Shown piece by piece: positions 3,376 to 56,955 of a stretch of DNA of 64,000 nt (the first letter of the stretch is position 1; each line of letters opens with the position of its first letter). The DNA lies in the NCBI RefSeq assembly GCF_001708405.1, contig NZ_CP012418.1, positions 372,001 through 436,000 on the forward strand, given 5' to 3'. This DNA comes from Kangiella sediminilitoris. Its GTDB lineage: Bacteria > Pseudomonadota > Gammaproteobacteria > Enterobacterales > Kangiellaceae. The translations under genes and the position numbers were made by a program. Below the pieces are notes generated by a model. The model was not told the origin of the DNA and did no database searches. It saw only the letters and a list, made by a program, of their open reading frames with translations.

Positions 3376-4707
3376 ATGGCTTTTTCTCAATCACTAAATC
3401 CAAATGCATTTGAAAAGCACAATCGTGTTTTATATTTGCCCGCTAGTTGGAAGCGTTTGATGAGTTTGATTAAGTATCAGGTTCCTAACGGTGGTTTTGC
3501 AGTAATGGAAGGTGAGTTCGGAGCGGGTAAGTCTGCATTCGGAAAAATCTTCGAGAAGAAGCTCGTTCTAGATGACAGTATTGATTGCCAGATTATTCAG
3601 GTTCATCCATTAAGTACTATCCAGCAAATCAGGGCTCAGTTGCCAAAGGTTCCAGATAAGCCATTATTGGTAATTATTGATGATGCTCATGAGGCATCTA
3701 CCTTGTTATTACAAAAATTAACTGATCCAGCCGAAAACATATACTGGTTATTACTAGCCGAGCCTGGTTTAAGCGAACGAGTGGAAGCATTTTCAGATCG
3801 GTCTGTAGACTTGCCTCTACTAACGAAAGAAGAATGTTTTGAATTTCTTCAGAGACAATTACAGGACCAGCCTAAATACGCTCAAATGTCACAAATGCAA
3901 AGTGACACTATCTGGTATTCAAGTCAGGGTTTGCCGAAGGATATTATTGAGGGTGCCAAAAAGAACTTTAGCACTTTATTTTCCGGACAGGAAAGTAATG
4001 AGAATTTTGATAAGGCGAACAAAAGCTGGTACATGACTGCCGCGCTTGCAGCCGCAGCAATAATATTTTTGGTGATAGTTGTCATTAATTTACTCACTGG
4101 TGATGAATCAGAGGAGCAGTCAACCTCAAACGAGTTGGTGCTCGAAGTTGATGAAGAATATGGTCCAGAACAAAAAGAAGAAAGCCTACTCTCTGACAAT
4201 ACGATTCAAAACACTCCCGAACAAGCAAAAGGTGCCGAGCCCGAGGTAACTGTCACTAATGACAGTGCTCCACCTGAAATGACTTTAGAGCGTGACGAGA
4301 AGGGTAAGGAAAGTAGTGACTTAAACGATCCTATTGAAGATATTGCGCTTGAAGTCGCTAAGGAGCCATCACCTCAAAAAGTGACTACGGGGGAAAAACA
4401 AACCTTTAAGCAATGGCTTTCTAGTCAGTCTCAAGACGCTTATAGCTTACAGTTATTTTCACACTCTGATGAAATTGCTGCAAGAGACTTTCAGACCTCA
4501 GTAGATCTGGCTGATAGTTATGTCTACTCAACCGAGTTAAAGGGAGAGAAACGCTACCGGGTGCTGTGGGGAGCATTCCCAACGAGAGCAGAAGCCCAAC
4601 AGGCAATAGAATCCTTGCCGCCGGAAATATTGGCCCAAAAACCCTGGATTCGTCAGTTATCTTCAGTCGTTAATGAGTTAGCTGGGAGTGGAAAGGACGG
4701 CCAATAA
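3376..4707 (+). CDS. damX: DamX-like cell-division protein: AAA ATPase, one membrane span, SPOR domain
   Basis: This 443-residue protein has an N-terminal ExeA/AAA-type ATPase half with Walker A GEFGAGKS (46-53) and Walker B LLVIIDDAHE (about 97-106). One transmembrane helix follows (about 220-241), then an acidic low-complexity periplasmic linker, then a C-terminal SPOR domain (about 370-433). SPOR domains bind denuded peptidoglycan at division septa. The position right after aroB matches E. coli damX, though E. coli DamX lacks the ATPase half. The topology implies a cytoplasmic ATPase tethered to septal peptidoglycan; its partner is unknown. Unlike E. coli, dam does not follow. Confidence 0.85.
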   Translation: MAFSQSLNPNAFEKHNRVLYLPASWKRLMSLIKYQVPNGGFAVMEGEFGAGKSAFGKIFEKKLVLDDSIDCQIIQVHPLSTIQQIRAQLPKVPDKPLLVIIDDAHEASTLLLQKLTDPAENIYWLLLAEPGLSERVEAFSDRSVDLPLLTKEECFEFLQRQLQDQPKYAQMSQMQSDTIWYSSQGLPKDIIEGAKKNFSTLFSGQESNENFDKANKSWYMTAALAAAAIIFLVIVVINLLTGDESEEQSTSNELVLEVDEEYGPEQKEESLLSDNTIQNTPEQAKGAEPEVTVTNDSAPPEMTLERDEKGKESSDLNDPIEDIALEVAKEPSPQKVTTGEKQTFKQWLSSQSQDAYSLQLFSHSDEIAARDFQTSVDLADSYVYSTELKGEKRYRVLWGAFPTRAEAQQAIESLPPEILAQKPWIRQLSSVVNELAGSGKDGQ

Positions 4708-4730
4708 AGCTCTTTTCTTTAAGATTTAGG

Positions 4731-4759
4731 CTGTTTTCAAACCAGCTTCCATTTATAAT
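4731..4759 (+). promoter_or_regulatory. Possible hemE promoter
   Basis: A perfect TATAAT (4754-4759) lies 33 bases before the hemE ATG. The hexamer 17 bases upstream (CTGTTT) is a poor -35 match, so the call rests on the -10 and on its position in the damX-hemE gap. Confidence 0.35.
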
Positions 4760-4791
4760 AGCGACCATTATTGATACACCAGTCGCAGATT

Positions 4792-5862
4792 ATGAACCAA
4801 CCTTTACTAAACGATCGATATATAAAAGCTGCCTTACAACAACCCACAGACCGTACGCCGGTTTGGATGATGCGTCAGGCAGGGCGCTACCTACCTGAGT
4901 ATCGAGAGTTGCGAGCTGAAGCAGGAAGTTTTATGGATTTATGTACTAACCCTGAGCTTGCTTGCGAGGTTACATTGCAGCCTTTAAGACGTTACCCTCT
5001 GGATGCTGCGATTCTATTTTCGGATATTCTAACAATCCCAGATGCTATGGGGCTAGGCTTATACTTCACTCCTGGCGAGGGGCCGGCTTTTAAGAATCCA
5101 GTTCGAAACGCTAAGGAAATTGCGGCTTTGCCTATTCCTGATCCAAACCAGGAGCTTAAATATGTGACCGATGCAGTATCAACCATTCGCCATGAGCTTA
5201 AAGGTGAAGTGCCATTAATTGGCTTTTCTGGTAGCCCATGGACACTGGCAACTTACATGGTAGAGGGGGGGACTACGAAGAACTTCTCTCAAGTTAAAGG
5301 CTTAATGTATGAGCAGCCACAGGTTCTACATCAGTTATTGGATAAGTTAGCTGACTCTATAATTACTTATTTAAATGCACAGGTTGAGGCGGGAGCTCAG
5401 GCGCTGATGATTTTTGATACCTGGGGTGGCGTTTTGATACCTCGTGACTATCAAGAGTTCTCCTTACGATATATGTCAAAAATAGTACAAGGACTGGTTA
5501 GAGAAAAGGATGGTCAACAGATTCCTGTTACTTTATTTACGAAAGGCGGTGGGAAATGGCTCGATCTAATGGCCGCTACGGGATGTGACTGTCTCGGAGT
5601 TGACTGGACAACGAACCTTTCGGAAGCTAGACAGATAGTGGATGGAAAAGTTGCTCTACAGGGCAATATGGATCCATCTATATTGTACGGATCCGACGAA
5701 AGAATTCGTCAAGAAGTTGAAACTATACTTGCTAGCTATGGACATGGTAGCGGTCATGTGTTTAATTTAGGACATGGGATACACCAAACCGTGGATCCTG
5801 AAAAAGCAGGTGTTTTTGTTAACGCTGTGCATGAGTTGAGTAAGAAATATCATATACAATAA
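4792..5862 (+). CDS. hemE: Uroporphyrinogen decarboxylase
   Basis: HemE decarboxylates the four acetate side chains of uroporphyrinogen III to give coproporphyrinogen III in haem synthesis. The sequence has the family signatures [17 protein letters not shown] near the N-terminus, the ILFSDIL segment with the catalytic aspartate, [13 protein letters not shown], and the C-terminal [10 protein letters not shown]. The ATG at 4792 (356 residues) was chosen over the TTG at 4771, because [12 protein letters not shown] is the family's usual beginning and the TTG would add an unconserved tail. yheT follows 17 bases later. Confidence 0.96.
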
Positions 5863-20115: not shown

Positions 20116-20165
20116 GATATAGAGAATAGCCGAGAGGGAGAGTTTAAAGTGTGATTAAAATCACA
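20116..20165 (-). promoter_or_regulatory. CRP-type box and putative class II promoter for pyrE
   Basis: TGTGATTAAAATCACA (20150-20165) is a perfect TGTGA-N6-TCACA box. On the minus strand a TATTCT -10 (20128-20123) predicts a start near 20116, which places the box centre (20157.5) at exactly -41.5, the class II CRP position. No -35 is needed in that geometry. The regulator could be CRP or Vfr; an FNR-type site would need TTGAT arms, which do not match as well. Confidence 0.5.
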
Positions 20166-43673: not shown

Positions 43674-44891
43674 ATGAGCAGTAAAAAGAAAAATCTTTGG
43701 CTATCTATGATTTTGCCCTTAGCAATACTGATTGTTGTCATCGTGACGATAAATATTATGCTTAGCAATAAGCCAAAAGCTTTCAACCGTAAGCCTCCAG
43801 AGCGGGTTGAGACTGTAGATGTAGATGCCATTAAATATACTGATTATCAGGTATTTATAGACTCCTACGGTAATATTGAAGCATCAACTTCGAGTGAGCT
43901 GGTGGCTCAAGTATCTGGCCAAGTTGTTTCCGTGGCGGAAAACTTTGAAACTGGTCTGCCCATCGAAAAAGGGCAGGAGCTTCTAAAGATCGATGATAGA
44001 GATTTTCAGATTGAAGTACGTATCGCCAGGGCTGAAGTTGCGAATGCCCGTTTGACACTCAATGAAGAAAGGGCCATGGCTGAGCAGGCACTTAAGGATT
44101 GGAAAAAAATCAATCCTGATAAAAAAGCTAACGCATTGGTATTGAGAGAGCCCCAATTAGCATCGGCACAAGCAAAACTGGATGCTGCTATTGCAAGGCT
44201 GGAAAAAGCAAAGCTTGAGCTGGAGCGGACAACGGTAATTGCACCATATGATGGTTATATCGTTCGTCGCATGGTTAGCCAAGGCGAGTCAGTAAATACA
44301 AACACGCCTGTGGCAAGAATATTTGCCAGTAATTCACTTGAGGTAAGGTTGCCGGTACCGAGCAATAAAGTACAGTTTTTGAAAGAACCAGATGGTAAAG
44401 CTCAGGTCAAGCTGCAAGCCGACTTTGCTGGAAGTAACAAAACCTGGATTGTTCCGGTTGATAGAAGCGACAGTGTGATTGATGAGCAAACCCGCCAGTG
44501 GTACATCACCGCTAAACTCCCGGCTGACTTCCTAGAAAAAAATCCCAGGGTCAAAGTGGGTCAATTCGTTAGTGCAGAAATTGAAGGCCGTTTACTTAAG
44601 GATATAGTGCTAGTCCCTTCACGGGTTTTAACAGCTGACGATAAAGTATTTATTTACAAAGATGACGCAGTATATCGTCGTGATATAAAAATATTATGGC
44701 AAGATGATAAAAATACCATTGTTGCTCCTCTGGCGTCTGACCCTGGTCTCGATCAAGGGCAGTTACTAGTGACTTCAAAGCTGACTTTTGTCGCGGATGG
44801 AGCTAAAGCAAAATTAAAAGAGCCAGTGGCTGAATCAAAAGAAATAGCAACGGATAAACCGTTTGTTTCTTCAGCCGCAGTAGTGGAGTAA
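43674..44891 (+). CDS. RND efflux periplasmic adaptor subunit
   Basis: The 405-residue membrane-fusion protein has one N-terminal anchor helix (about 9-30), a lipoyl half-motif split around a coiled-coil hairpin, and a beta-barrel domain. The signatures are ELVAQVSGQVVSVAENFETG on one side and RTTVIAPYDGYIVRRMVSQGESV on the other. It links the inner-membrane pump to an outer-membrane channel. The pump gene follows five bases later. No outer-membrane factor gene is nearby, so a TolC-like protein from elsewhere must be used. Confidence 0.93.
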   Translation: MSSKKKNLWLSMILPLAILIVVIVTINIMLSNKPKAFNRKPPERVETVDVDAIKYTDYQVFIDSYGNIEASTSSELVAQVSGQVVSVAENFETGLPIEKGQELLKIDDRDFQIEVRIARAEVANARLTLNEERAMAEQALKDWKKINPDKKANALVLREPQLASAQAKLDAAIARLEKAKLELERTTVIAPYDGYIVRRMVSQGESVNTNTPVARIFASNSLEVRLPVPSNKVQFLKEPDGKAQVKLQADFAGSNKTWIVPVDRSDSVIDEQTRQWYITAKLPADFLEKNPRVKVGQFVSAEIEGRLLKDIVLVPSRVLTADDKVFIYKDDAVYRRDIKILWQDDKNTIVAPLASDPGLDQGQLLVTSKLTFVADGAKAKLKEPVAESKEIATDKPFVSSAAVVE

Positions 44892-44895
44892 TAAC

Positions 44896-47800
44896 ATGAT
44901 TAGTTGGTTTGCACGAAACCCTGTCGCCGCTAATTTGTTGATGATAGTTATCCTAATCGCTGGTGCTTTTACAATGTGGCAGCGAGTTACTGTGGAGCGT
45001 TTCCCTAGTATTGAGTATGACTACATTAACGTTGTGGTTCCATTTCGCGGAGCGACACCAGAAGAAGTTGAGCAAACAGTTTCTACCCGGATTGAGGAAG
45101 CCGTATACGATCTTGAGGGGATAAAGGAACTTTCCTCTACCTCATCGGAAGGTGCAGGCCGCGTTAGCATTGAGGTAGATGAGGGCTACAACGTCAAAGA
45201 TGTTTTAGACCAGGTAAAAAGTCGAGTCGATGCTTTAAACACTTTACCCCTGGAGGCTGAAAAGCCGATTATTTCGCAGTCAATTAGACGCCGTGAAGCA
45301 ATCAGTGTAGTTATCAGTGGTGAGCTACCTGAAAAGGAATTACGTCGTTATGCCGAGATTATAGAGCAGGAAATCGCTTCTCAACCGGGTCTTTCTCAGA
45401 TAGAGACATCCGGTGTCAGAGCTTATGAGATTGCTATTGAGTTCCGACAAGATCAACTTAATGAGTATAATCTGACTCTACAGGATATCGCCAATGCCGT
45501 TAATAACCGCTCTCTGGATTTATCTGCAGGGCAGGTTCGCTCTGATCGTGGCGAGATTTTGCTGCGACTTAAAGGCCAGTCTTACACTAGAGAAGACTTT
45601 ACGAGGATTCCTGTTTTAACCAAAGAAGATGGAACAATTCTGGAGCTGGGAGATCTGGCAACAATCCGCGACGGATTTGAAGAAGAGAGCATTAATACAA
45701 GATTTGATGGTGAGCCATCTATTGAACTTGAGATATACCGTACTGGCACGCAGAGTACGATTGATGTATCAGAACGAGTTAAAGCATTTGTAGAAGCCAA
45801 ACAAGACTCGTTACCGGCAGGAGTCAACCTTTCCGTATGGCGAGATCGCTCAGAAAGTTTAGAGGCTCGACTTAACACTCTGGTTACCAGCGCACTACAG
45901 GGCAGCTTGTTAGTGATATTGCTTTTGGCTTTATTCCTTCGACCGAGCATCGCTATGTGGGTTAGCCTGGGTATTCCGATTGCTTTCGCTGGCGGTATGG
46001 CTTTCATGCCCGAGCTTGGCATCAGTGTAAACTTAATCAGCCTTTTTGCTTTTATTCTCGTGCTGGGTATCGTAGTCGATGATGCAATTGTAACCGGTGA
46101 GAATATTTATAATCATCTCAATAGAGGAGAAGCTCCTTTAGATGCAGCAATAAAAGGTACTAAGGAAGTAGCTGTCCCTGTAACCTTTGGTGTTATTACT
46201 ACCATGGTGGCTTTTCTACCACTAGCTTTCATGGGAGGCGGCTGGGGGGCCTTTTATTCTCAAATTCCATACATTGTCATTCCTGTTTTATTGTTCTCAT
46301 TGGTAGAATCAAAGTTAATTTTGCCAGCCCACATCGGACACACTAAGGCGAAAAAGGATCTCAAAAAACCGAACAAAGTACTGGAATACCAGCAAAGGTT
46401 CGCAAAGGGATTTGAGAAGGGTATCCTCAAGTTTTATAAACCGATTCTGGCGTTTGTATTAGAGCGCTGGCAGCTAAGCCTGGCAATTTTTGTCGGCATA
46501 CTATTACTGGTCCTTGCTACAGTTCAAAGTGGCATCACACGCTTTGTATTTTTCCCAAGAATTCAAAGTGAGTTAGCGCGGGCTACTTTGCAAATGCCTG
46601 AAGGAACGCCTTTCGAACTGACGGATTCATATATTGAGAGAATGACCGACGCTGCAATTAAACTTCAGGATAAGTATCGAAATGAGCAGGGTGAATCAGT
46701 TATCGAGCATATCTTCTCCTCAAGCGGAACCCTGTGGGGAAGTGACTCTGCTTCGTCCAGCAAGGGGCGGGTTATGTTTGAGATCATGCCACCTGAGCAA
46801 CGAGAAAGCACCATTTCCAGTACACAGCTGGTAAGAGAGTGGCGAGAGCTAATAGGGCCACTGCCAGGAGTTGAAACCTTGACTTTCAGGGCAGAAATTG
46901 GTCGAAGCGGTGACCCTGTTGATGTACAGCTTCGAGGCTCTAACATTGCTAATCTGAACGCAGCGGCAAATGACGTGAAAGAAAAGCTTTCAAAAGTATC
47001 GGGTGTATTTGACATCGCAGATAGCTTCAGTAAAGGCAAGCAGGAAATCCAGTTCAAACTGAAGCCCCAGGCTGAAACGCTCGGACTTAGTCTAAGTGAC
47101 TTAGCGAGACAGGTTAGAAGCGCTTATTTTGGTGTTGAAGTGCAGCGGATACAGCGTGGACGAGAAGATGTTCGTGTCATGCTGCGGTTAGCAAAAGAAG
47201 AACGCGGTAGTTTGGAAGGGTTAAACAGCTTGCTGATCAATACACCTTCTGGCGGGAAAATTCCTTTGTCTCAAGTGGCAGAATTATCCTTCGGCAAGAG
47301 CCCGGCGACTATTTATCGAATTGACCGTCAGCGTACACTTAATATTACTGCGGATGTTGATAAGGAAAATTCTGATATCGAAGCAATTAAACGACGTATC
47401 ATAGCCGATGCGACGGATGTGGTTGCTAATTATCCAGGTGTCTCCTTTAGTTTGGAAGGAGAGGCTCGTGAACAGGAAGAGTCTAACAACAGCTTGATGG
47501 TTAGTTTGACGTTCGTTTTGTTTGCTATTTATATCTTGTTGGCGATTCCGTTTAAGTCCTACGCTCAGCCGTTTGTTGTAATGGTGGTGATACCATTTGG
47601 CGCGGCAATGGCAACAATTGGACACTGGATAATGGGAATGCCACTTTCCATCATGAGTATGATGGGTATGTTGGCACTGACCGGTGTGGTTGTGAATGAC
47701 TCTCTGGTTCTAGTGGATTATATTAATCAGCAGCGACGCATCCATGGCGAAACTCTGAAAGAAGCTGTACTTCATGCAGGAGTCAGACGGTTACGCCCAG

Positions 47801-48006
47801 TGATGTTAACATCTTTCACTACGTTTGCAGGTTTAATGCCTCTGATCTTCGACAAATCAACGCAGGCCCAATTCCTGATCCCTATGGCGGTTTCTTTGGG
47901 CTTTGGTATCTTATTGTCGACAGTGATTACGTTGGTCTTAGTGCCTTTGATGTACTACAAGGCCGCTAATCTGAAGCATGCCGTTAAGCGGGGTTTGAGG
48001 TTATGA
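44896..48006 (+). CDS. RND-family efflux permease
   Basis: The 1036-residue pump belongs to the RND superfamily, with twelve helices and two large periplasmic loops. The proton-relay aspartates are in IVVDDAIVTGEN (Asp395 and Asp396), as in AcrB-type pumps. The start ISWFARNPVAANLLM and the second-half VVVNDSLVLVDYINQ are typical of the HAE1-like marine group. Substrates are unknown; the residues do not match the heavy-metal (CusA) signature, so drugs or lipids are more likely. A strong terminator follows directly. Confidence 0.93.
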   Translation: MISWFARNPVAANLLMIVILIAGAFTMWQRVTVERFPSIEYDYINVVVPFRGATPEEVEQTVSTRIEEAVYDLEGIKELSSTSSEGAGRVSIEVDEGYNVKDVLDQVKSRVDALNTLPLEAEKPIISQSIRRREAISVVISGELPEKELRRYAEIIEQEIASQPGLSQIETSGVRAYEIAIEFRQDQLNEYNLTLQDIANAVNNRSLDLSAGQVRSDRGEILLRLKGQSYTREDFTRIPVLTKEDGTILELGDLATIRDGFEEESINTRFDGEPSIELEIYRTGTQSTIDVSERVKAFVEAKQDSLPAGVNLSVWRDRSESLEARLNTLVTSALQGSLLVILLLALFLRPSIAMWVSLGIPIAFAGGMAFMPELGISVNLISLFAFILVLGIVVDDAIVTGENIYNHLNRGEAPLDAAIKGTKEVAVPVTFGVITTMVAFLPLAFMGGGWGAFYSQIPYIVIPVLLFSLVESKLILPAHIGHTKAKKDLKKPNKVLEYQQRFAKGFEKGILKFYKPILAFVLERWQLSLAIFVGILLLVLATVQSGITRFVFFPRIQSELARATLQMPEGTPFELTDSYIERMTDAAIKLQDKYRNEQGESVIEHIFSSSGTLWGSDSASSSKGRVMFEIMPPEQRESTISSTQLVREWRELIGPLPGVETLTFRAEIGRSGDPVDVQLRGSNIANLNAAANDVKEKLSKVSGVFDIADSFSKGKQEIQFKLKPQAETLGLSLSDLARQVRSAYFGVEVQRIQRGREDVRVMLRLAKEERGSLEGLNSLLINTPSGGKIPLSQVAELSFGKSPATIYRIDRQRTLNITADVDKENSDIEAIKRRIIADATDVVANYPGVSFSLEGEAREQEESNNSLMVSLTFVLFAIYILLAIPFKSYAQPFVVMVVIPFGAAMATIGHWIMGMPLSIMSMMGMLALTGVVVNDSLVLVDYINQQRRIHGETLKEAVLHAGVRRLRPVMLTSFTTFAGLMPLIFDKSTQAQFLIPMAVSLGFGILLSTVITLVLVPLMYYKAANLKHAVKRGLRL

Positions 48007-48010
48007 TAAG

Positions 48011-48037
48011 AAAAGCGGAGCTATTAGCTCCGCTTTT
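48011..48037 (+). terminator. Terminator of the RND operon
   Basis: AAAAGCGGAGC and GCTCCGCTTTT form a perfect eleven-base-pair stem with a TATTA loop, starting five bases after the permease stop. It is symmetrical and could also stop the convergent gene at 48059-48895. Confidence 0.88.
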
Positions 48038-48058
48038 GCTTTCACAGTTGGGGAAGTA

Positions 48059-48895
48059 TTATGGGTTCGCCTGGTAGGCTTGGTCAATGTAAGGTTGTAA
48101 TGGCTCAAACGGAGTGTATTGAGCATAACCCATAGGATCCTCATACTTAATTCTAAACTGGTGATCGGTAAAGCCATCCGGGAAGGTTTCAGTTTGAATT
48201 TCTAATCCTGCGGCCTTAAAAATTGAATAATCTTCAGAGGGGATTGGCGCTGGTACATTAATGATTCTTTCTCCATGGCCCATCCAATTAGTTTTGATTT
48301 TAAAGCCATCTCCGTTAAACTCGTCGAATGTAGCTCTTTGATATAGAGACAGAGTCATATCATCATCTTGATAGTTAAGTGATTCTACATCAGCAATAGT
48401 AACTGGCGTTACATCCCTTAAAATACCATTGGCATTAAATATATTTAGTCCCATAGAGTTATTTGGATCATTTAACTCAAAAGTCATTTCCACGACCTCA
48501 AGTTCGACACTTAAATCCGTACCGCCAGCGATTTTTTTTCCATTAGTGGTTACTTTGACCAAAACTTTACTGTAGACCCACGCATCGTTAACAATGGTCT
48601 TAAATACATCTGAACCGTTATAACTGTATGAGCCATCCACTTTTTGAAAGTTTTTAGCTACTAAGTTTGTTGCATTTGGGAAAACTAACTCGATTTCTTC
48701 CAGTTCTTGATCTGGTTGGTGAATTGAGCTAGATGTTTTGACCTTAATTTTTTCGATGCCATTAAGATCAAGGTTTGGATAGGGGACTGAAGACCCGCTC
48801 ATTGGGAAGTAAGTTTCATACTCTGAGATTTCAGCCTGAGTAGTTTGGCCTAGTATTAATAATATGGTGGTTAGAAAAGCCAGAATAGCCTTCAT
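48059..48895 (-). CDS. Secreted protein of unknown function
   Basis: The 278-residue protein has a Sec signal peptide (about 1-21, ending TTQA). A beta-rich body follows without recognisable motifs, apart from repeated acidic and aromatic stretches (FELNDPNNSMGLNIF, DGFKIKTNWMGHG). There are no cysteines after the signal, and no transmembrane helix. The start at 48895 was chosen because a GGAG site lies just before it and a proper signal peptide results; a longer ORF from 48970 adds a cysteine-rich tail that looks spurious. I do not recognise the family. Confidence 0.75.
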   Translation of the reverse strand: MKAILAFLTTILLILGQTTQAEISEYETYFPMSGSSVPYPNLDLNGIEKIKVKTSSSIHQPDQELEEIELVFPNATNLVAKNFQKVDGSYSYNGSDVFKTIVNDAWVYSKVLVKVTTNGKKIAGGTDLSVELEVVEMTFELNDPNNSMGLNIFNANGILRDVTPVTIADVESLNYQDDDMTLSLYQRATFDEFNGDGFKIKTNWMGHGERIINVPAPIPSEDYSIFKAAGLEIQTETFPDGFTDHQFRIKYEDPMGYAQYTPFEPLQPYIDQAYQANP

Positions 48896-49203
48896 TTTTA
48901 TCTCCTTATTTATTGTTTTGTGTCCCAACTGTGAAAGCCGAGAAATGCTAGCACAGAAACAAAAACACAATCAATGAAAGATAAATTTGTGATGAAGAGA
49001 TAATGCTATTAATGGAAATATACTAGTGTAAGAGATGTACCACATAACAATGCTCTATCTATAAATTACAAATATCTATTACGCTTAATAAATTTATAGG
49101 CTTCACAAATCATTCACGTTTTTTGTGACAGAATTCACATTATCCAGTGCACAGGAAGGCGCTTGTCACCCTTAACAGTATTTATCAAATTAAGAGAGGC
49201 TAA
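48896..49203. other. Intergenic region upstream of the GTPase/Roadblock cassette
   Basis: The 308 bases are A+T-rich and hold the divergent start regions of two transcripts. The notable content is the CRP-type box at 49124-49139, partly overlapped by a second TTCACG...GTGAC half-repeat on its left. No open reading frame or RNA gene is evident. Confidence 0.6.
49124..49139 (+). promoter_or_regulatory. CRP-type box upstream of the GTPase/Roadblock cassette
   Basis: TGTGACAGAATTCACA is a perfect TGTGA-N6-TCACA match, centred about 72 bases before the ATG at 49204. I could not identify a -10/-35 pair that fits a class I or II position convincingly, so activation or repression is open. Confidence 0.5.
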
Positions 49204-49602
49204 ATGTCTTCTGTAAAAGATTTTATGTGGCGAACAGTCTGCATGCCCGATCTCCACCCGGATTTAAAAGGAGTAAGTTACAAGCTAAATCACTGGCCGG
49301 ACTTCGGTAAAGTTGAATACATGCACGAACTCATCGATCTGTGTTCTTTGTTATCAATCACGTATTTATCCTATGAGCAATTAAAAGCTTTGACTCAATT
49401 TGATGATGACCTGCTCAGTCACTCTCTCAATACGCTAAAGGCATCAGGCTTATTACTGTTAGCGAGTAATACGGACAAAGTAGAGCTGACTCAACAGAAA
49501 ACAACCCTGACAGACTTCCAGCGTAAGCTAATGGGTTTTATTCATAAAGCCTATCGCAAAGCTAAAGACAGTCAGGCGATCCTGGCACGGGAGGGCTCTT
49601 AA
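49204..49602 (+). CDS. Small protein, possible winged-helix partner of the GTPase
   Basis: The 132-residue protein is not recognised. Its central part (about 52-98, with LSYEQLKALTQFDDDLLSHSLNTLKASGLLLL followed by a short strand and turn) looks like a winged-helix unit. The ends are charged. It has no signal or membrane segment. An AGAGAGG site lies before the ATG. The stop TAA overlaps the GTPase ATG by one base, so the two are coupled. In actinobacterial conservons a small DUF742 protein occupies the same role beside a GTPase and a Roadblock protein; the resemblance is in arrangement, not proven by sequence. Confidence 0.7.
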   Translation: MSSVKDFMWRTVCMPDLHPDLKGVSYKLNHWPDFGKVEYMHELIDLCSLLSITYLSYEQLKALTQFDDDLLSHSLNTLKASGLLLLASNTDKVELTQQKTTLTDFQRKLMGFIHKAYRKAKDSQAILAREGS

Positions 49603-50147
49603 TGTACCGTAAGTTGGTTGTCATTGGTGGTGTAGGTGCAGGGAAAAGTACCTTAATTCGAACCTTGAGCGAAATTGAAACGGTCGATACAGATGTTAAG
49701 ACGAGCCAGGATATTGGTAAACCTGTTACAACGGTTGGTATTGACTATGGCCGTATAACTCTGGGGAAAGAGGAGGCTATAGGTCTCTATGGTGTACCCG
49801 GACAAGAGCGTTACTCCTTCATATGGGATATGGTCAAAGAAGATGTCTGGGGCTGCGCTCTTTTGTTAAACAGCAAGTCTATACCTAGCGCTGATAAGTT
49901 GTTCAGACTACTCAATGTATTTATCAATAATAAGCCCGACCTGCCCTTAGTTATCGGAGTTACGCACAGCGATATTATGTCGGTTGATTTTAATCAAATC
50001 AGGGCTGCGTTCTCGAGAAGAGGTCTAAACCCACCCATATTTTCAGTCGATGCTCGCAAAAAAGAAAGCTCATTATTGTTACTCCATACACTGATGAGCT
50101 TGCATACTGCTAAACACACTTTAGGTGATACTGCTGAATATGAATAA
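49602..50147 (+). CDS. Small Ras-like GTPase of the MglA/COG2229 type
   Basis: The 181-residue protein has a P-loop GGVGAGKST (9-17), conserved threonines in PVTTVGIDYG (switch I), the G3 segment YGVPGQERY with the usual aspartate replaced as in MglA-type GTPases, and a G4 motif THSD (121-124) in place of NKxD. It has no membrane anchor. Bacterial GTPases of this group act as molecular switches, often with Roadblock proteins as activators. Two Roadblock genes follow directly; the first overlaps by eight bases. Confidence 0.88.
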   Translation: MYRKLVVIGGVGAGKSTLIRTLSEIETVDTDVKTSQDIGKPVTTVGIDYGRITLGKEEAIGLYGVPGQERYSFIWDMVKEDVWGCALLLNSKSIPSADKLFRLLNVFINNKPDLPLVIGVTHSDIMSVDFNQIRAAFSRRGLNPPIFSVDARKKESSLLLLHTLMSLHTAKHTLGDTAEYE

Positions 50148-50517
50148 ACAACATTTAGAGAATACCTTTGATGTATTTATAAACAAATATTTTGATCTAG
50201 AAATGATATCTCTATGTACAGCAGATGGCTTTGGAATTTTGCATAAATCAAAAGGCAAATCTGATGTGGAGTTGGATCGATTATCGGCTATTACAAGCTC
50301 GCTGGTATCTCTTGGCGATGCGAGCTCTAACCAAGTTATTGGGGGGGCCTTGAATTCAACCATTGTTGAAACTGATAACGGTAATTTATTAATAAAAAAA
50401 ATAACTATGGCAGACAAGCCGTTAGTTTTGTCCATAGTAACTAGTAAGAAAATGTTGTTAGGTGAAGCTAACTACTTAATTGGTCAGTGCGAAAAAAGGT
50501 TAAGTGCTTCGTTCTGA
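50140..50517 (+). CDS. Roadblock/LC7-like protein 1
   Basis: The 125-residue protein has the alpha-beta pattern of the Roadblock/LC7 (MglB-like) fold: a first helix, the strand turn MISLCTADGFGILHKSKG, a long helix (about 45-62), and two strands ending LVLSIVTSKKMLLGE before the last helix. Such proteins form homodimers that bind small GTPases. The ATG at 50140 overlaps the GTPase gene by eight bases and was chosen over GTG 50125, which would add five residues. It differs clearly from the second Roadblock protein, so this is not a recent duplication. Confidence 0.75.
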   Translation: MNKQHLENTFDVFINKYFDLEMISLCTADGFGILHKSKGKSDVELDRLSAITSSLVSLGDASSNQVIGGALNSTIVETDNGNLLIKKITMADKPLVLSIVTSKKMLLGEANYLIGQCEKRLSASF

Positions 50518-50556
50518 ATCATGATGAAAATTAATTTGAAAATATGAGGTAAAAAA

Positions 50557-50916
50557 ATGTCAAATATTAACGAATCTTTAGATGCACTAATGTCAATCGA
50601 TGGGGCTGTTGGTACTGCTGTAGTCGATTACGAGTCTGGTATGGTTTTAGGGACTCAAGGTGGTGGTGTTGACCTTGAATTAGCAGGAGCAGGTAATACC
50701 GAAGTAGTAAAAGCTAAAATGGCAACCATGGAATCTTTAGGAATTGAAGGTGATATTGAGGATATATTAATTACCCTGGATACGCAGTTACATATCATTC
50801 GTCCCACCCTCAATTTGAAAGGATTATTTATTTATCTGGTATTAGATAAAACAAAATCAAACCTTGCCCTGGCCCGTCGCAAAGTGCAGTCTATAGAGAC
50901 CACCTTGGAAATTTAA
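50557..50916 (+). CDS. Roadblock/LC7-like protein 2
   Basis: The 119-residue protein fits the Roadblock/LC7 fold: a first helix (ESLDALMSIDGAVGTAVV), the strand DYESGMVLGTQ, a central helix (TEVVKAKMATMESLG), then strands (IEDILITLDTQLHIIRPT and LFIYLVLDKTKSN) and a final helix. It starts 39 bases after the first Roadblock gene with its own GAGG site. A Rho-independent terminator follows, so the cassette ends here. Two different Roadblock proteins could form a heterodimer or act at different steps of one switch. Confidence 0.82.
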   Translation: MSNINESLDALMSIDGAVGTAVVDYESGMVLGTQGGGVDLELAGAGNTEVVKAKMATMESLGIEGDIEDILITLDTQLHIIRPTLNLKGLFIYLVLDKTKSNLALARRKVQSIETTLEI

Positions 50917-50943
50917 CGCACTTTGCAAGGGTCACTAAAAAAG

Positions 50944-50971
50944 CCGCTGGTGAATAGCCGGCGGTTTTTTT
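50944..50971 (+). terminator. Terminator of the GTPase/Roadblock cassette
   Basis: CCGCTGG pairs with CCGGCGG (one G-T) around a seven-base loop and is followed by a run of seven T. Confidence 0.75.
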
Positions 50972-51079
50972 ATAGGTGTTGTAGCTGATTAAGGTGAAGC
51001 GGAATAAGAGTAATGGTGGGTATAGTGATAACTGGCAGGACAACCATTACTTTAACTACTAATTGCAAAAAGTATCTTG

Positions 51080-52849
51080 TTAGCCTCTACCTTTTGCTTT
51101 TCCGTTACAGCCAACCATGCGAAGTTGAAGTTCTTTTTCGAAACTATCACCTGCTATCTGTCCATTTAGTGTTAGCAAGGAGTCTCCACAACGAGCTCCG
51201 GTTTGTTTTCCAGAGAACTTCACAAGTAAATCCATGTAACCATCTTCGTTAACGTCTGAAGTCGTTATAACCGACCCCGGTGCATTACCCAGTGTCAGTG
51301 AGTTAATATCTATTCTTGTCACATCGTTTGTACCTGAGCCAAGAAAAACTCCCAGTAGTGGTTTTGCGCTTCTTGGGTTAAGAACCCATGCGTTAAGGCT
51401 ATAAAACTCCAGTGGTTCTGTTACCGGCTCAAGTGGCGGAACTTGTGAGCATGAAGATAATTCTGAACTGCCGCTAGAGGTAGTGACTGTGGCAGTAATA
51501 TAGCGGCCTTCTGGAATAAGGTTTAAGGCTGGTGTTGAGAAGTTACCCTGGCCTGAGTTGTCACTATTACCGTTAATACATTGTAGATTAAACTCTGCAT
51601 TAGAAAGTCCGGAAGGACAGCTTGTTGATACTGAAAGGCAGTAGCTTAATTCATTGTTGATAAATTCAGGATCGTTAAACTGACCTTTCAACAGTTGGGT
51701 GCCGTTATCGTTGACGACACTAACCGAAGGAGGGTTGGGCAGGTTATCTGTATTGATGTTATTGATAATTCCGTCATTTAGTAGGTCGATAGCTAAACCG
51801 GAATTCCCTACTAAGGAGTTACGTTCGAAAATATTGCCGGGTTGGGTCGCAGTAATTCCAGCGTTACCATTATTGCTATATTCGTTGAAAAGCAACTGCG
51901 CGCCGGTGCTTCCTTCAAGCAGGATGCCGTTAACTGCGTGTCCATTGACGGCGTTGGCCGAATAGATATTGTTGGAACCGTTAATGGACCATATTCCGTG
52001 CCCGGCAACTCCTCCAGTAACTACTGCGCCATTTCCGGATTGTCCATTCGAATCACCAATACGGTTATTAGCGATGGTAGAGTCTGAGAGAGCAACTAGA
52101 TAGAAACCTGCATAAAAGCCATGACTGGTATTACCCTCAACCAATACTTCGGAGCCAGCAGCCCTAATTCCCACGCTACTTGTCCCTGTAGCCGCTGAAT
52201 CATTCTCATCAAAGCCAATGATGTTATTACGAACAATACTTCCAATGTTCGTATCACCTGTAGATGATCCTGCTACGTCAATAGCAACGAAGGATGAGGT
52301 GTTGTAGACCCTATTATCTTCAATAATGCTATAACTATTTCTTGAGCTAACACCGGCCCCATCTCGTACTATGTTATTGCTAAACGTCTGGTTTTCTCCC
52401 TCAAGTACTAAACTTCTGAACCCAATAAACTCAATCCCTGAAATGATGGAGCCATCCCCACGCCACCGAAGATTATCGTTGCCACTTTGAATGGTTACTC
52501 CTGCTCCGCGCAACTCTAACGGTTGTTCAAATTCAAATGAGGAGACTTCTATGGTGCCATTGATGTTGGTCAGATCAATGATGTCGAATGTTGGGCTAAA
52601 CTCGGCCTCAACAATAGCTGCCACGAAAGTACAAACTCCAGAGGTTGTTAGGCACTCTCCATCCCCAATGGTGTCGAACGATTCCTGTTCATTACTGGTT
52701 GAGTTAACGACAAAAGTTGCTGCTATACCTAACGAAGGTGTTAGTAATAGGAGTAAGATAATGGTTGGTGCAAAAGCCTTAAGGAGGCGGTGCTTGAGAT
52801 AATAGGAACCTATATGAAGCGTCCTGCATAAAGTGGTAAAGGTTCTCAT
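51080..52849 (-). CDS. Secreted CSLREA-domain / right-handed beta-helix protein
   Basis: The 589-residue protein has a long N-terminal segment with a hydrophobic helix (about 26-45) acting as signal. A CSLREA-like domain follows (ATFVVNSTSNEQESFDTIGDGECL...CTFVAAIVEAE), then repeated parallel beta-helix turns rich in Asn and Gly (about 110-330, for example NNIVRD, NRIGDSNG, NEYSNNGNAGI). The end has a Ca-binding-like DVNEDGYMDLLVKF segment. Such proteins are exported surface or adhesin-like products. The start at 52849 has an AGGAGA site; an ORF from 52909 is longer but less likely. It converges on the GTPase cassette. Confidence 0.75.
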   Translation of the reverse strand: MRTFTTLCRTLHIGSYYLKHRLLKAFAPTIILLLLLTPSLGIAATFVVNSTSNEQESFDTIGDGECLTTSGVCTFVAAIVEAEFSPTFDIIDLTNINGTIEVSSFEFEQPLELRGAGVTIQSGNDNLRWRGDGSIISGIEFIGFRSLVLEGENQTFSNNIVRDGAGVSSRNSYSIIEDNRVYNTSSFVAIDVAGSSTGDTNIGSIVRNNIIGFDENDSAATGTSSVGIRAAGSEVLVEGNTSHGFYAGFYLVALSDSTIANNRIGDSNGQSGNGAVVTGGVAGHGIWSINGSNNIYSANAVNGHAVNGILLEGSTGAQLLFNEYSNNGNAGITATQPGNIFERNSLVGNSGLAIDLLNDGIINNINTDNLPNPPSVSVVNDNGTQLLKGQFNDPEFINNELSYCLSVSTSCPSGLSNAEFNLQCINGNSDNSGQGNFSTPALNLIPEGRYITATVTTSSGSSELSSCSQVPPLEPVTEPLEFYSLNAWVLNPRSAKPLLGVFLGSGTNDVTRIDINSLTLGNAPGSVITTSDVNEDGYMDLLVKFSGKQTGARCGDSLLTLNGQIAGDSFEKELQLRMVGCNGKAKGRG

Positions 52850-52967
52850 AACTGTCTCCTGAATCCATTCGGGACAGATCAGTGTACGGAAAATTCCGGC
52901 GCACATCAAGCAAATGACGCGACTCCTGCTTTCTGGAGGCTATTCTTTTAATTTGATTGTTATGAGA

Positions 52968-53044
52968 TGGTGGGCCCGCCCCGACTTGAACGGGGGACCT
53001 GCCGATTATGAGTCGGATGCTCTAACCAACTGAGCTACGGGCCC
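52968..53044 (-). tRNA. tRNA-Ile2 (anticodon CAT, lysidine type), CCA encoded
   Basis: The 77-base cloverleaf reads GGGCCCG...CGGGCCCACCA on the minus strand, with anticodon loop CTCATAA and TTCAAGT in the T arm. Anticodon CAT fits either Met or Ile2. The acceptor pairs C4-G69 and C5-G68 are those described for TilS recognition of tRNA-Ile2 and are absent from E. coli elongator tRNA-Met. E. coli ileX lies close to rpoD as here. I therefore call Ile2, whose C34 becomes lysidine to read AUA. The only non-pair in the anticodon stem is T27-C43. Confidence 0.8.
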
Positions 53045-53080
53045 TAATTAGGATGCACTAAAGCAGTGCTAAAAGTACTA

Positions 53081-53114
53081 ACGGGCAGGAGTTTACGAGA
53101 AAACGCCTGCCCGT
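53081..53114 (-). terminator. Strong hairpin between rpoD and the tRNA gene
   Basis: ACGGGCAGG pairs perfectly with CCTGCCCGT over nine bases. GTTT and AAAC can extend the stem inside the loop after a single mismatch. It lies 50 bases after the rpoD stop. The following T-run is broken (TAGTACTTTT), so it may end rpoD transcription or mark a processing site before the tRNA. Confidence 0.55.
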
Positions 53115-53165
53115 GCAATAATAAATCTGGAAAATTCCGATCTATTATAAGTTTTTGTTTTATAA

Positions 53166-55037
53166 CTACTCGTCGATATAAGTACGTAGCTTCTCAGAAC
53201 GACTTGGATGACGTAGTTTACGTAGCGCTTTAGCTTCGATCTGACGAATACGCTCACGGGTTACATCAAACTGTTTACCGACTTCTTCCAGGGTATGGTC
53301 GGTATTCATATCGATACCGAAACGCATCCGTAGAACTTTAGCCTCGCGAGCCGTTAAGCCAGCCAGAATTTCATCGGTTACTTCTTTCAAGCTTTCGCCA
53401 GTAGCCGCATCGACCGGTGAATCGATCGTAGAGTCCTCAATAAAGTCGCCCAGATGCGAATCTTCATCATCGCCAATTGGCGTCTCCATGGAGATCGGCT
53501 CTTTAGCAATCTTAAGAACTTTACGAATTTTATCTTCCGGCATGTCCATACGTTCTGCCAATTCTTCCGGCTGCGGCTCACGCCCCATTTCCTGAAGCAT
53601 CTGGCGAGAAATCCGGTTCAACTTGTTAATCGTTTCGATCATGTGAACCGGAATACGAATGGTTCGTGCCTGGTCAGCGATGGAGCGAGTAATCGCCTGA
53701 CGAATCCACCAGGTAGCATAGGTCGAGAATTTATAACCACGGCGGTATTCGAACTTATCGACAGCTTTCATCAAACCGATATTACCTTCCTGAATCAGAT
53801 CCAGGAACTGTAAGCCTCGGTTGGTGTATTTCTTGGCGATAGAGATAACCAGACGCAAGTTTGCTTCAACCATCTCTTTTTTCGCACGACGTGCTTTTGC
53901 TTCACCAATCGACATTTCGCGGTTGGCTTCTTTAATTTCCAGCACGCTTAGATCGCAGCTTTCTTCGACCAGCTGCATTTTACGCTGGGCTTTACGGATC
54001 TCTTCTGCGTGCTCGGCTAGTACTTCTGAGTACTTACTCTTCTTAGCTAAATGGCCGTCCAACCACTCAGAATTGGTCTCCGCACCTGAGAAGGTTGTGA
54101 TAAATGTTTTACGTGGCATACGAGCTTTACGTACCGCAAGGTGCATAATGTAGCGCTCTTGCTCACGGATACCATCCATCTTGGTACGTAGGTTTTGTAC
54201 CAGATATTCAAACATACGTGGAGACAACTTCAGGTTCATGAAGTGCTCGCGCATGGCTTCGATCTGCTTTTGTGCAGACTTATGTTCACGGCCATAACGT
54301 TTGATTGCTTTAACAGTTTTATCGTACTGTTTTGCTAATTCAGAGAAGCGTTCCTCAGCTTCCTCAGGATCAGGACCTGTATCGACTTCTTCTGAATCGT
54401 CATCATCTTCATCGTCGTCAGTATCCGAATCAATGTCTTCATCTTCGTCATCAGAGTCTGCATTAGCGTTTGCAATCTGGGCTGCTTCCGACTCTTCTTG
54501 AACGAACTCAGCTTCTTCGCCATCAAGGAAACCTGTGACGATGTCAGTTAAACGAATAAATTCATTTTTATATTGCTCATATTCGTCAAGCAGGATACGG
54601 ATAGTATCTGGGTAATTACCTATGGCGGTAAGTACCTGACGAATACCTTCTTCAATACGTTTAGCGATGTCGATTTCGCCTTCACGTGTTAGCAGCTCAA
54701 CGCTACCCATTTCGCGCATGTACATACGGACAGGGTCTGTTGTGCGGCCAAATTCTCCGTCGACGCTGGCAAGAGCAGCAGCAGCTTCTTCTGCAGCTTC
54801 CTCGTCGGTAACGGATTCATCATTGATCAGCAGTTCATCAGCATCAGGAGTCGTTTCATAAACCTGGATACCCATGTCGTTAATCATGCGAATAATATCT
54901 TCGATCTGTTCAGGATCGACGATATCTGGCGGTAGGTGATCGTTAACTTCTGCGTAAGTTAAGAAACCTTGCTCTTTTCCTCGCGCGATGAGTAACTTTA
55001 ATTGTGACTGCTGTGATTGTTGCGAATTCTCTGACAT
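53166..55037 (-). CDS. rpoD: RNA polymerase primary sigma factor (sigma-70)
   Basis: RpoD directs RNA polymerase to housekeeping promoters. The 623-residue protein has region 1.1, a non-conserved region with a very acidic stretch (about 195-220, mostly Asp and Glu), region 2 with [20 protein letters not shown] and the -10-binding segment [18 protein letters not shown], region 3, and region 4 with the HTH ending [16 protein letters not shown]. It lies in the rpsU-dnaG-rpoD macromolecular-synthesis block, 139 bases after dnaG. Confidence 0.97.
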
Positions 55038-55176
55038 CTAGAATACCTTTGTAGTGATCACACCATTTAGCGATTAATAACCAGGGATCTGCAACCGTAC
55101 AAATCCCATGCGGTTAGCGCATGGCGAACCGCAAATTATACAGAATAAGCCCCCATTTCAGCAAGCGCTAGCTTCG

Positions 55177-56955
55177 CTATCGCTTTTCGGGCTTTTGTTT
55201 GGCCAACAATAGTAATTGCTGGTATTCAGACTTTTCTGCCGTTGTTAACTTCTGGCCGGATTGTTCATCTTTCAAGCGCAAGTAATCCAGACGCTGTGTC
55301 TGGGCCTGCCTTAACAACCGTTTTATACAGTCATTCAACTCAGCTTGCTCATTACCCTTCATTCGCTCTTCACGCTCAGTAACCGCAAGTTGGGCCAGGC
55401 GGTTGTATAGTTTTTCGTGGTCGCGCCAGAATTCGAGCAACGTACCTGTAGTGATATTGGGGTTGCTGTGAATAATTTCAAGGAGTTGGTGCAATAGTTT
55501 CGGACCCTTTTCGGGTAGCGTTTTCAACCATGTTACGTTGTTCACGGTCAACCCCAGCTGCGGTTTTTGCAGGAGCAAGGTCAGAGCAAGCTGGATTGTT
55601 TTGTCCACCTTTTGATTATTAGTCACTTTCTTGGGGCGTTTGCTGGGTTTGGCGGTTTGTTGAGGTTGCTCGATAATTTTTTCTAACTTTTCTACAGAGA
55701 GCTGGGCCTTGTCGGCCAGTGCGTTACTGAAAAATTCGTGATAAATCGGGTCAGTGATTTTATCAAGGTAAGGTTTTGCCAGATGGACTAACTGGCCGCG
55801 ACCAGAAACTGAATTTAAATCCACCTGGGATGCCAGGTGCTTCAATAAAAATTCAAATAGCGGTGTTGACTCAGATACCTGCCGCAGAAACTCATCTTTA
55901 CCCACTTTTCGGACCATAGAGTCAGGATCTTCACCATCCGGCAGGAACATCAATTTAATATCACGACCATCGCGTAATTGTGAAAGACCATGCTCCAAAG
56001 CCCGTAACGCTGCATCACGCCCGGCTCTGTCACCATCAAAACACAACACCAGCTCGCGAGTAGTGCGGAACAGTTGCTGTAGATGACTCTCGGTTGTAGC
56101 CGTACCCAATGTTGCCACTGCATTATTAATATTAAATTGAGCAAGAGCGACGACATCCATGTAACCCTCAACAATCAGCAAGCGCTCCAATTTTCGGTTT
56201 GCCTGACGGGCCTGATATAAACCATAGAGTTCGTTACTCTTGTGGAAGATTGGAGTTTCAGGCGAGTTTAGGTATTTAGGTTCGCCCTGATCAATAATTC
56301 TGCCACCAAAGGCAATCACCCGACCACGCTTGTCCTTGATTGGGAACATGATGCGATCGCGAAAGCGATCGTAGAGCGAATTATCTTTCTTTATCAGCAT
56401 CCCGCAGTCGATGAGTTGCTGTTGTAGCTTTTTATCAGTTTTAAGCTGAGGAAAGATTGATTCCAGGTTGCGCCACTCTCCAGGGACATATCCAATGGCG
56501 AAGCGTTTTGCTATTTCCCCACTGAGGCCTCTTTTCTTTAGATAGTTAACCGCAGGCTTTCCCTGTGGAGAACTTAGTTTTCGCTGGTAGAATTTTGCGA
56601 TTTTCTCCATCAGGTCATAAAGTGTAACATCCACCTTCGGTCTGCTTGGAGCATTCTCATCGCGTGGTACTTCCATGCCTAAACTAGACGCTAATTCTTC
56701 TACAGCATCTGGAAATTCCAGTCGGTCATACTCCATAACGAAACTGATGGCGTTTCCGTGAGCACCACATCCGAAGCAGTGATAAAACTGTTTGTCCTGA
56801 CTGACAGTAAAGGATGGGGTCTTTTCACCATGAAACGGGCAGCAAGCTTTGAAATTGGTTCCGGCTTTTTTTAGGGGAATACGCGAATCAATCAAATCGA
56901 CAATATCGACTCGAGTCAGTAGTTCCTGAATAAACTGCTGCGGAATTAGTGCCAT
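55177..56955 (-). CDS. dnaG: DNA primase
   Basis: DnaG makes RNA primers at the replication fork. The 592-residue protein has the CHC2 zinc site (C39, H42, C60, C63 in CCPFHGEKTPSF and YHCFGCGAHG), the TOPRIM core (LLIVEGYMDVVAL and CFDGDRAGRDAALRAL) and a C-terminal helicase-binding domain. It is the middle gene of the rpsU-yqeY-dnaG-rpoD cluster and 85 bases downstream of yqeY. Confidence 0.97.
   Translation of the reverse strand: MALIPQQFIQELLTRVDIVDLIDSRIPLKKAGTNFKACCPFHGEKTPSFTVSQDKQFYHCFGCGAHGNAISFVMEYDRLEFPDAVEELASSLGMEVPRDENAPSRPKVDVTLYDLMEKIAKFYQRKLSSPQGKPAVNYLKKRGLSGEIAKRFAIGYVPGEWRNLESIFPQLKTDKKLQQQLIDCGMLIKKDNSLYDRFRDRIMFPIKDKRGRVIAFGGRIIDQGEPKYLNSPETPIFHKSNELYGLYQARQANRKLERLLIVEGYMDVVALAQFNINNAVATLGTATTESHLQQLFRTTRELVLCFDGDRAGRDAALRALEHGLSQLRDGRDIKLMFLPDGEDPDSMVRKVGKDEFLRQVSESTPLFEFLLKHLASQVDLNSVSGRGQLVHLAKPYLDKITDPIYHEFFSNALADKAQLSVEKLEKIIEQPQQTAKPSKRPKKVTNNQKVDKTIQLALTLLLQKPQLGLTVNNVTWLKTLPEKGPKLLHQLLEIIHSNPNITTGTLLEFWRDHEKLYNRLAQLAVTEREERMKGNEQAELNDCIKRLLRQAQTQRLDYLRLKDEQSGQKLTTAEKSEYQQLLLLAKQKPEKR

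Follow-up and report, generated by a model that had tools for sequence, protein, structure and literature searches.

Bacterial relatives of Ras include the MglA-type GTPases, which set the polarity of Myxococcus cells. In the Group 1 MglA of M. xanthus, the G3 motif reads TVPGQ and the protein carries an intrinsic Arg finger (PMC4316618). Group 3 MglA systems, which are almost confined to beta- and gammaproteobacteria such as Stenotrophomonas, combine MglA and one or two MglB proteins with an adaptor whose N-terminal region is receiver-like and whose C-terminal region is a winged helix; the cited sections give the receiver-like region as typical of the adaptor and do not state that it is required (PMC4316618). 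As marks of Groups 2-5 or 2-3, the same source names G-x-PGQ (GTPGQ) in G3, a Thr replacing the G2 Arg finger, a G4 without Lys, an Asp-Ala-Arg G5 and an Asp-Gly pair in MglB (PMC4316618). Group 3 is known from genomes and has seen little bench study. Our search of the open-access literature found one bench study, on Snodgrassella, where mutation of an orphan mglB, in a system that the authors put in Group 3, altered soft-agar spreading and gut colonisation (PMC11112851), and found no worked-out signal for the group. Short BLUF proteins, namely PixD-PixE-PilB1 and the BLUFs of Acinetobacter, link a BLUF input to a type IV pilus or twitching output (PMC9090330, PMC4844311).

The window analysed here is a stretch of 64,000 nt from Kangiella sediminilitoris (GCF_001708405.1, NZ_CP012418.1, 372,001-436,000, forward strand). 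It carries, at 49204-50916, a cassette encoding a 132-aa protein, a small GTPase and two unlike Roadblock proteins, with the following features:

49124..49139, no strand assigned: CRP-type box TGTGACAGAATTCACA, 64 nt 5' of the first start codon
49204..49602, + strand: P0001, 132 aa, winged-helix-like adaptor half without input domain (by homology)
49602..50147, + strand: P0002, 181 aa, MglA/CvnD-type small GTPase (G1-G5 motifs)
50140..50517, + strand: P0003, 125 aa, MglB-type Roadblock protein with an Asp-Gly pair, putative GAP
50557..50916, + strand: P0004, 119 aa, second Roadblock protein, unlike P0003
50936..50972, + strand: terminator-like hairpin with a T run

Gene set, motifs and profiles confirm the cassette of a GTPase and two different Roadblock proteins proposed in the preliminary description of this DNA, and the clear terminator reported there corresponds to a strong 16-pair hairpin with a T run at the 3' end of the operon. 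A Pfam scan of six neighbouring proteins (43674-56955), comprising an HlyD/RND pair upstream, a 303-aa protein without a match, a beta-helix protein, sigma-70 and DnaG, found no kinase domain, no response-regulator gene and no pilus protein among them, and the suggested likeness to a kinase-less conservon is borne out for these neighbours.

The GTPase P0002 reads GxxxxGKS in G1, TT in G2, GVPGQ in G3, THSD in G4 and VDAR in G5, which agrees with its earlier reading as an MglA-type GTPase lacking the G3 Asp. Its G2 Thr pair (T43 T44) is invariant in 11 aligned rows. Across 96 GTPases, G-x-PGQ was found in 95 (62 with GTPGQ and 33 with another G-x-PGQ; one without a match), the G4 pattern THx[DE] in 66, and the G5 pattern D-x-R in only 62. 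Together with the Asp-Gly pair in P0003, the cassette shows the marks named for Groups 2-5 or 2-3, and its two Roadblock proteins fit the "one or two coupled MglB" of Group 3. The cassette is no isolated case: the missing G3 Asp and the two Roadblock proteins, the latter earlier called unusual, are both usual in the published Group 3 (PMC4316618). The Stenotrophomonas loci, from a genus named in the same source, also fall in the same homologous set as the window GTPase. Judged by gene types and motifs, the cassette is probably a variant of Group 3 MglA systems.

The two Roadblock proteins differ from each other, as had been noticed, P0003 being MglB-type by profile and P0004 a Roadblock protein by predicted fold. 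The P0003-type profile matches CvnB5, MfpD and MglB, and the Asp-Gly pair is present in P0003 and in all 32 of the 32 P0003-type alignment rows. In the three columns chosen by eye as the matching hairpin, none of the 41 P0004-type rows carries this pair, and all 41 read x-S-G or x-T-G. P0003 is therefore, from its sequence, the likely GAP of P0002.

The ATG of P0001 comes immediately after an in-frame stop codon, and in alignments the protein matches the C-terminal domain of larger adaptors, with or without BLUF. Its relatives are mostly about 240-985 aa long, with the homologous stretch at the C-terminus. The N-terminal half of the adaptor, including any receiver-like region, is absent in all three Kangiella cassettes, and the sister group has BLUF in that place. 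By these alignments P0001 is the C-terminal half of a larger adaptor, in which it is joined to a BLUF domain or, in the systems described in print, to a receiver-like region. P0001 is clearly homologous to the C-terminal part of adaptors adjoining such GTPases, and the winged-helix-like fold first suggested for the 132-aa protein is supported by a moderate model (pLDDT 71.7; best structural Z 7.3, in the range that the tool gives to models without a clear match).

As to the function of this half, P0001 could be a GEF for P0002 and thus the functional counterpart of conservon CvnC/MfpC, given that its operon partners are the same as in the conservon and that MfpC was reported to be a GEF for MfpB, with MfpD as its GAP (PMC13343842, PMC13015309). 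However, P0001 had no match to DUF742 at E 1, DUF742 was absent among the 25 of 26 families listed for 44 P0001 relatives at E 0.5, and mfpC homologues occur only in Actinobacteria according to the cited part of the preprint PMC13015309, so that we lean against this role while counting it as a real possibility. A different function would be control of transcription by the cassette, with P0001 as a DNA-binding winged-helix regulator set by the GTPase. Wuichet and Sogaard-Andersen put forward such a transcriptional role for Group 3 (PMC4316618), and P0001 gave single-member matches to HTH families (44-row scan) as well as matches among PDB profiles, to SmtB (E 0.015), AdcR and MarR proteins. All of these matches are weak, however; invariance within the family is confined to a Trp-Pro pair (P0001 residues 31-32) that precedes the helices; and winged helices bind proteins too, an EGOC-SEAC chain and RRE peptide-binding domains being among the structural matches of P0001, although no such match is significant. 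Control of transcription by the cassette through P0001 is doubtful in our eyes, and we favour P0001 as the input-less half of a signalling adaptor.

The conservation of the gene set was assessed with a GTPase profile, which gave at least 596 pattern matches in named genomes, at least 591 of them confirmed. The best 80 of these at least 591 loci were kept; they include near-duplicates (7 from Stenotrophomonas maltophilia), and some are ended by contig ends. Within these best 80 of at least 591, the GTPase was accompanied by a P0003 type in 73 loci, a P0001 type in 51 and a P0004 type in 42, and all four gene types stood together in 36, which upholds the idea of a set conserved across relatives. 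Among these 36 full loci the order was P0001-GTPase-P0003-P0004 in 25 and P0004-P0001-GTPase-P0003 in nine. In a class sample of 369 genomes, 64 had a GTPase profile match (E 1e-20) and 16 a P0004 match, 15 of the latter lying among the 64. A P0004-type gene also occurs at 7803-8159 of L056 (G188), a genome without a GTPase match at the threshold used, between neighbours that we take to be tsaE and tsaD. Outside this class, related GTPase and Roadblock genes followed by a sensor-like gene lie at 4989-6896 of L111 in the cyanobacterium Nostoc linckia; the sensor-like gene had no NCBIfam match, is presumably protoglobin-type, and is perhaps another kind of input for a related module.

A first GTPase tree comprised 96 rows without the two other Kangiella; a second, to which these two were added, used 45 of 98 rows. 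On the second tree the BLUF-bearing cassettes formed one group of 22 rows (support 97/95), and the three Kangiella GTPases were its sister (99/98). Cassettes with other inputs, for example in Marinicella, fell outside both groups. From the sister position of Kangiella it follows that either the input half was lost or BLUF was never gained, near the origin of the BLUF fusion.

Within Kangiella, three of 20 genomes have the cassette, in each case with the same RND permease gene upstream of it. The search for empty sites covered 19 permease loci with four profiles, the far-side neighbour being read for loci in + orientation. In the cassette-free G003, a Crp-like gene comes immediately after the RND permease gene and shares 68% identity with its counterpart behind the G006 cassette; in G006 and G011 such a gene immediately follows the cassette, and there is none among the ORFs at the window locus. 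These Crp-like genes (HTH_Crp_2 with a weak cNMP-binding domain) were located at L061 10782-11471, L062 10586-11275 and L171 2606-3301. This distribution, with the G003 arrangement and a P0001 identity of only 50-51% between the window and its two relatives, could suggest a decaying remnant that lost first the input domain and then, in most species, the whole cassette, but we consider this improbable, as three species keep all four reading frames open, P0004 and P0003 are 84-93% and 68-88% identical, dN is 0.04-0.24 against a saturated or high dS (mostly saturated, with two L064 GTPase rows left out), and the CRP-type box is largely kept.

The sister group indicates what an input to such a cassette can look like. 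A BLUF-like N-terminal half was found in 26 adaptor proteins from 25 loci, one genome being counted twice (L040, L068), and 21 of these loci belong to the best 80 of at least 591. Five of the BLUF adaptors were scanned with the Pfam BLUF family and matched at E 5.8e-20 to 1.8e-24, while the others were called by our own profile built from four (weakest E 2.2e-8). Besides an Asn place that we assume to be a BLUF photocycle residue, we read the places of the Tyr and Gln known as such (PMC4844311). Sixteen of the 26 adaptors carried Y, N and Q at the three places; two, from the Arenicella family, had Y, N and G; six, from Cellvibrionaceae and Zhongshania, had Cys for Tyr; and in two the Tyr was not covered. 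The arrangement of the module varies as well. At L038 7614-12434 (G390) there are two tandem modules, the first consisting of a P0004 type, a BLUF adaptor and a P0003 type, with no GTPase found in it, and the second of a P0004 type, a BLUF adaptor, a GTPase and a P0003 type. Marinicella meishanensis (L067 3202-4925) has a split form, in which a stand-alone BLUF ORF is directly followed by a short input-less adaptor ORF and then by a longer adaptor without BLUF, the GTPase and both Roadblock genes. In Marinicella pacifica (L079, about 4650-4900) a stop codon interrupts the short adaptor frame, which is perhaps a decaying copy, and no BLUF adaptor was found in this locus by profile.

A stand-alone BLUF gene was present in 3/3 Kangiella genomes with the cassette vs 3/17 without it (hypergeometric p 0.018, uncorrected for kinship); that of the window genome scored 104 bits (Pfam). 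These genes are unlinked to the cassette, five of the six share one neighbourhood, and a tree separates the stand-alone BLUFs from the fused forms (88/77). After removal of the genomes with fused forms, BLUF was found in 5/13 P0004-type genomes vs 45/366 in the class overall (p 0.014). This co-occurrence is at most suggestive of BLUF as a trans partner of the cassette. A broader proposal, that a gammaproteobacterial clade including Psychrobacter and Arenicella has wired BLUF to a Ras-like GTPase via a BLUF-winged-helix adaptor and that Kangiella would use a stand-alone BLUF in trans on its input-less adaptor, with light setting surface motility via MglA, is one we regard as speculative and rather unlikely to hold as a whole. 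No report joining BLUF to an MglA system was found in the open-access literature, and in the same literature neither the input-less adaptor form nor the BLUF form was found in print.

Upstream of the operon, for which no promoter-like site is listed, the CRP-type box that had been described at 49124-49139 is indeed a perfect TGTGA-N6-TCACA match. The whole genome holds eight perfect sites, compared with one for the reversed control pattern, and a second perfect box lies in the window at 20150-20165; with one mismatch allowed, the number of sites in the window is no higher than chance. At the aligned position, the other two Kangiella cassettes read GGTGACATAGTTCACA. The genome itself encodes a CRP, at L145 1450-2085 (NCBIfam CRP equivalog, 359 bits at a cut-off of 266). 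Because the box is accompanied by a similar site in two other Kangiella and by a true CRP gene, control of the cassette by cAMP through this putative site is plausible.

Taken together, we think that the cassette is probably a Group 3-type Ras-like GTPase switch with an adaptor that lacks an input domain, P0003 as the GAP, an input in trans and a pilus output. P0002 would cycle between GTP and GDP, with P0003, MglB-type and carrying the Asp-Gly pair, as its likely GAP; P0004 would probably modify the GAP, as MglC does for MglB, or form a heterodimer with P0003. P0001 may bind the GTPase or a Roadblock protein via its winged helix, acting as adaptor or GEF. In relatives the adaptor would relay the signal of the fused BLUF or receiver-like domain, and in Kangiella this input may be supplied in trans, possibly by the stand-alone BLUF protein, with protein amount under CRP control as a possible second input. 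The output would probably be type IV pilus polarity or activity. A PilT-family match was found in 308 of the 369 genomes, including all 64 that are GTPase-positive (hypergeometric p 2.7e-6, from lists matched by eye and uncorrected for kinship and genome size), and the PilT family was found in 20/20 Kangiella vs the cassette in 3/20. The E. coli control genome also lay above the PilT cut-off, and a PilT-family match is therefore not proof of working pili.

The relatives of the cassette reveal a pluggable input, a blue-light domain whose photocycle residues are often kept, and such an input would allow the module to be switched by a lamp. BLUF-adaptor cassettes offer a testable path by which BLUF proteins could affect twitching in gammaproteobacteria. 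The Kangiella cassette, whose adaptor has no input half, is a naturally reduced form suited to the study of the core contacts between adaptor, GTPase and Roadblock proteins.

Compared with known systems, the cassette shares with the actinobacterial conservon (Group 2, CvnA-D; mfp) a GTPase with a DAR G5, a Roadblock protein and a small third protein. It differs in having no histidine kinase CvnA among the scanned neighbours, THSD and not NxFD in G4, two Roadblock proteins, and no DUF742 match, the third protein being compared by DUF742 profile only. From M. xanthus MglA/MglB/MglC it is set apart by the absence of TVPGQ and the Arg finger from the cassette and of a response-regulator gene from the scanned neighbours. 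The cited parts of the work on short BLUF proteins (PixD-PixE-PilB1; Acinetobacter) do not mention an MglA cassette, and the Kangiella BLUF is unlinked to its own. The closest likeness is to Group 3 MglA, whose Stenotrophomonas loci have the same four gene types as the Kangiella cassette and with which it shares a C-terminal adaptor region with a putative winged-helix-like fold, a G-x-PGQ MglA, a non-canonical G4, a DAR G5 and one or two MglB; the Kangiella adaptor differs in lacking the receiver-like N-terminal half, in place of which the sister group has BLUF. The class is already known, and what is new is the input-less adaptor form in three Kangiella and the BLUF form in their sister group.
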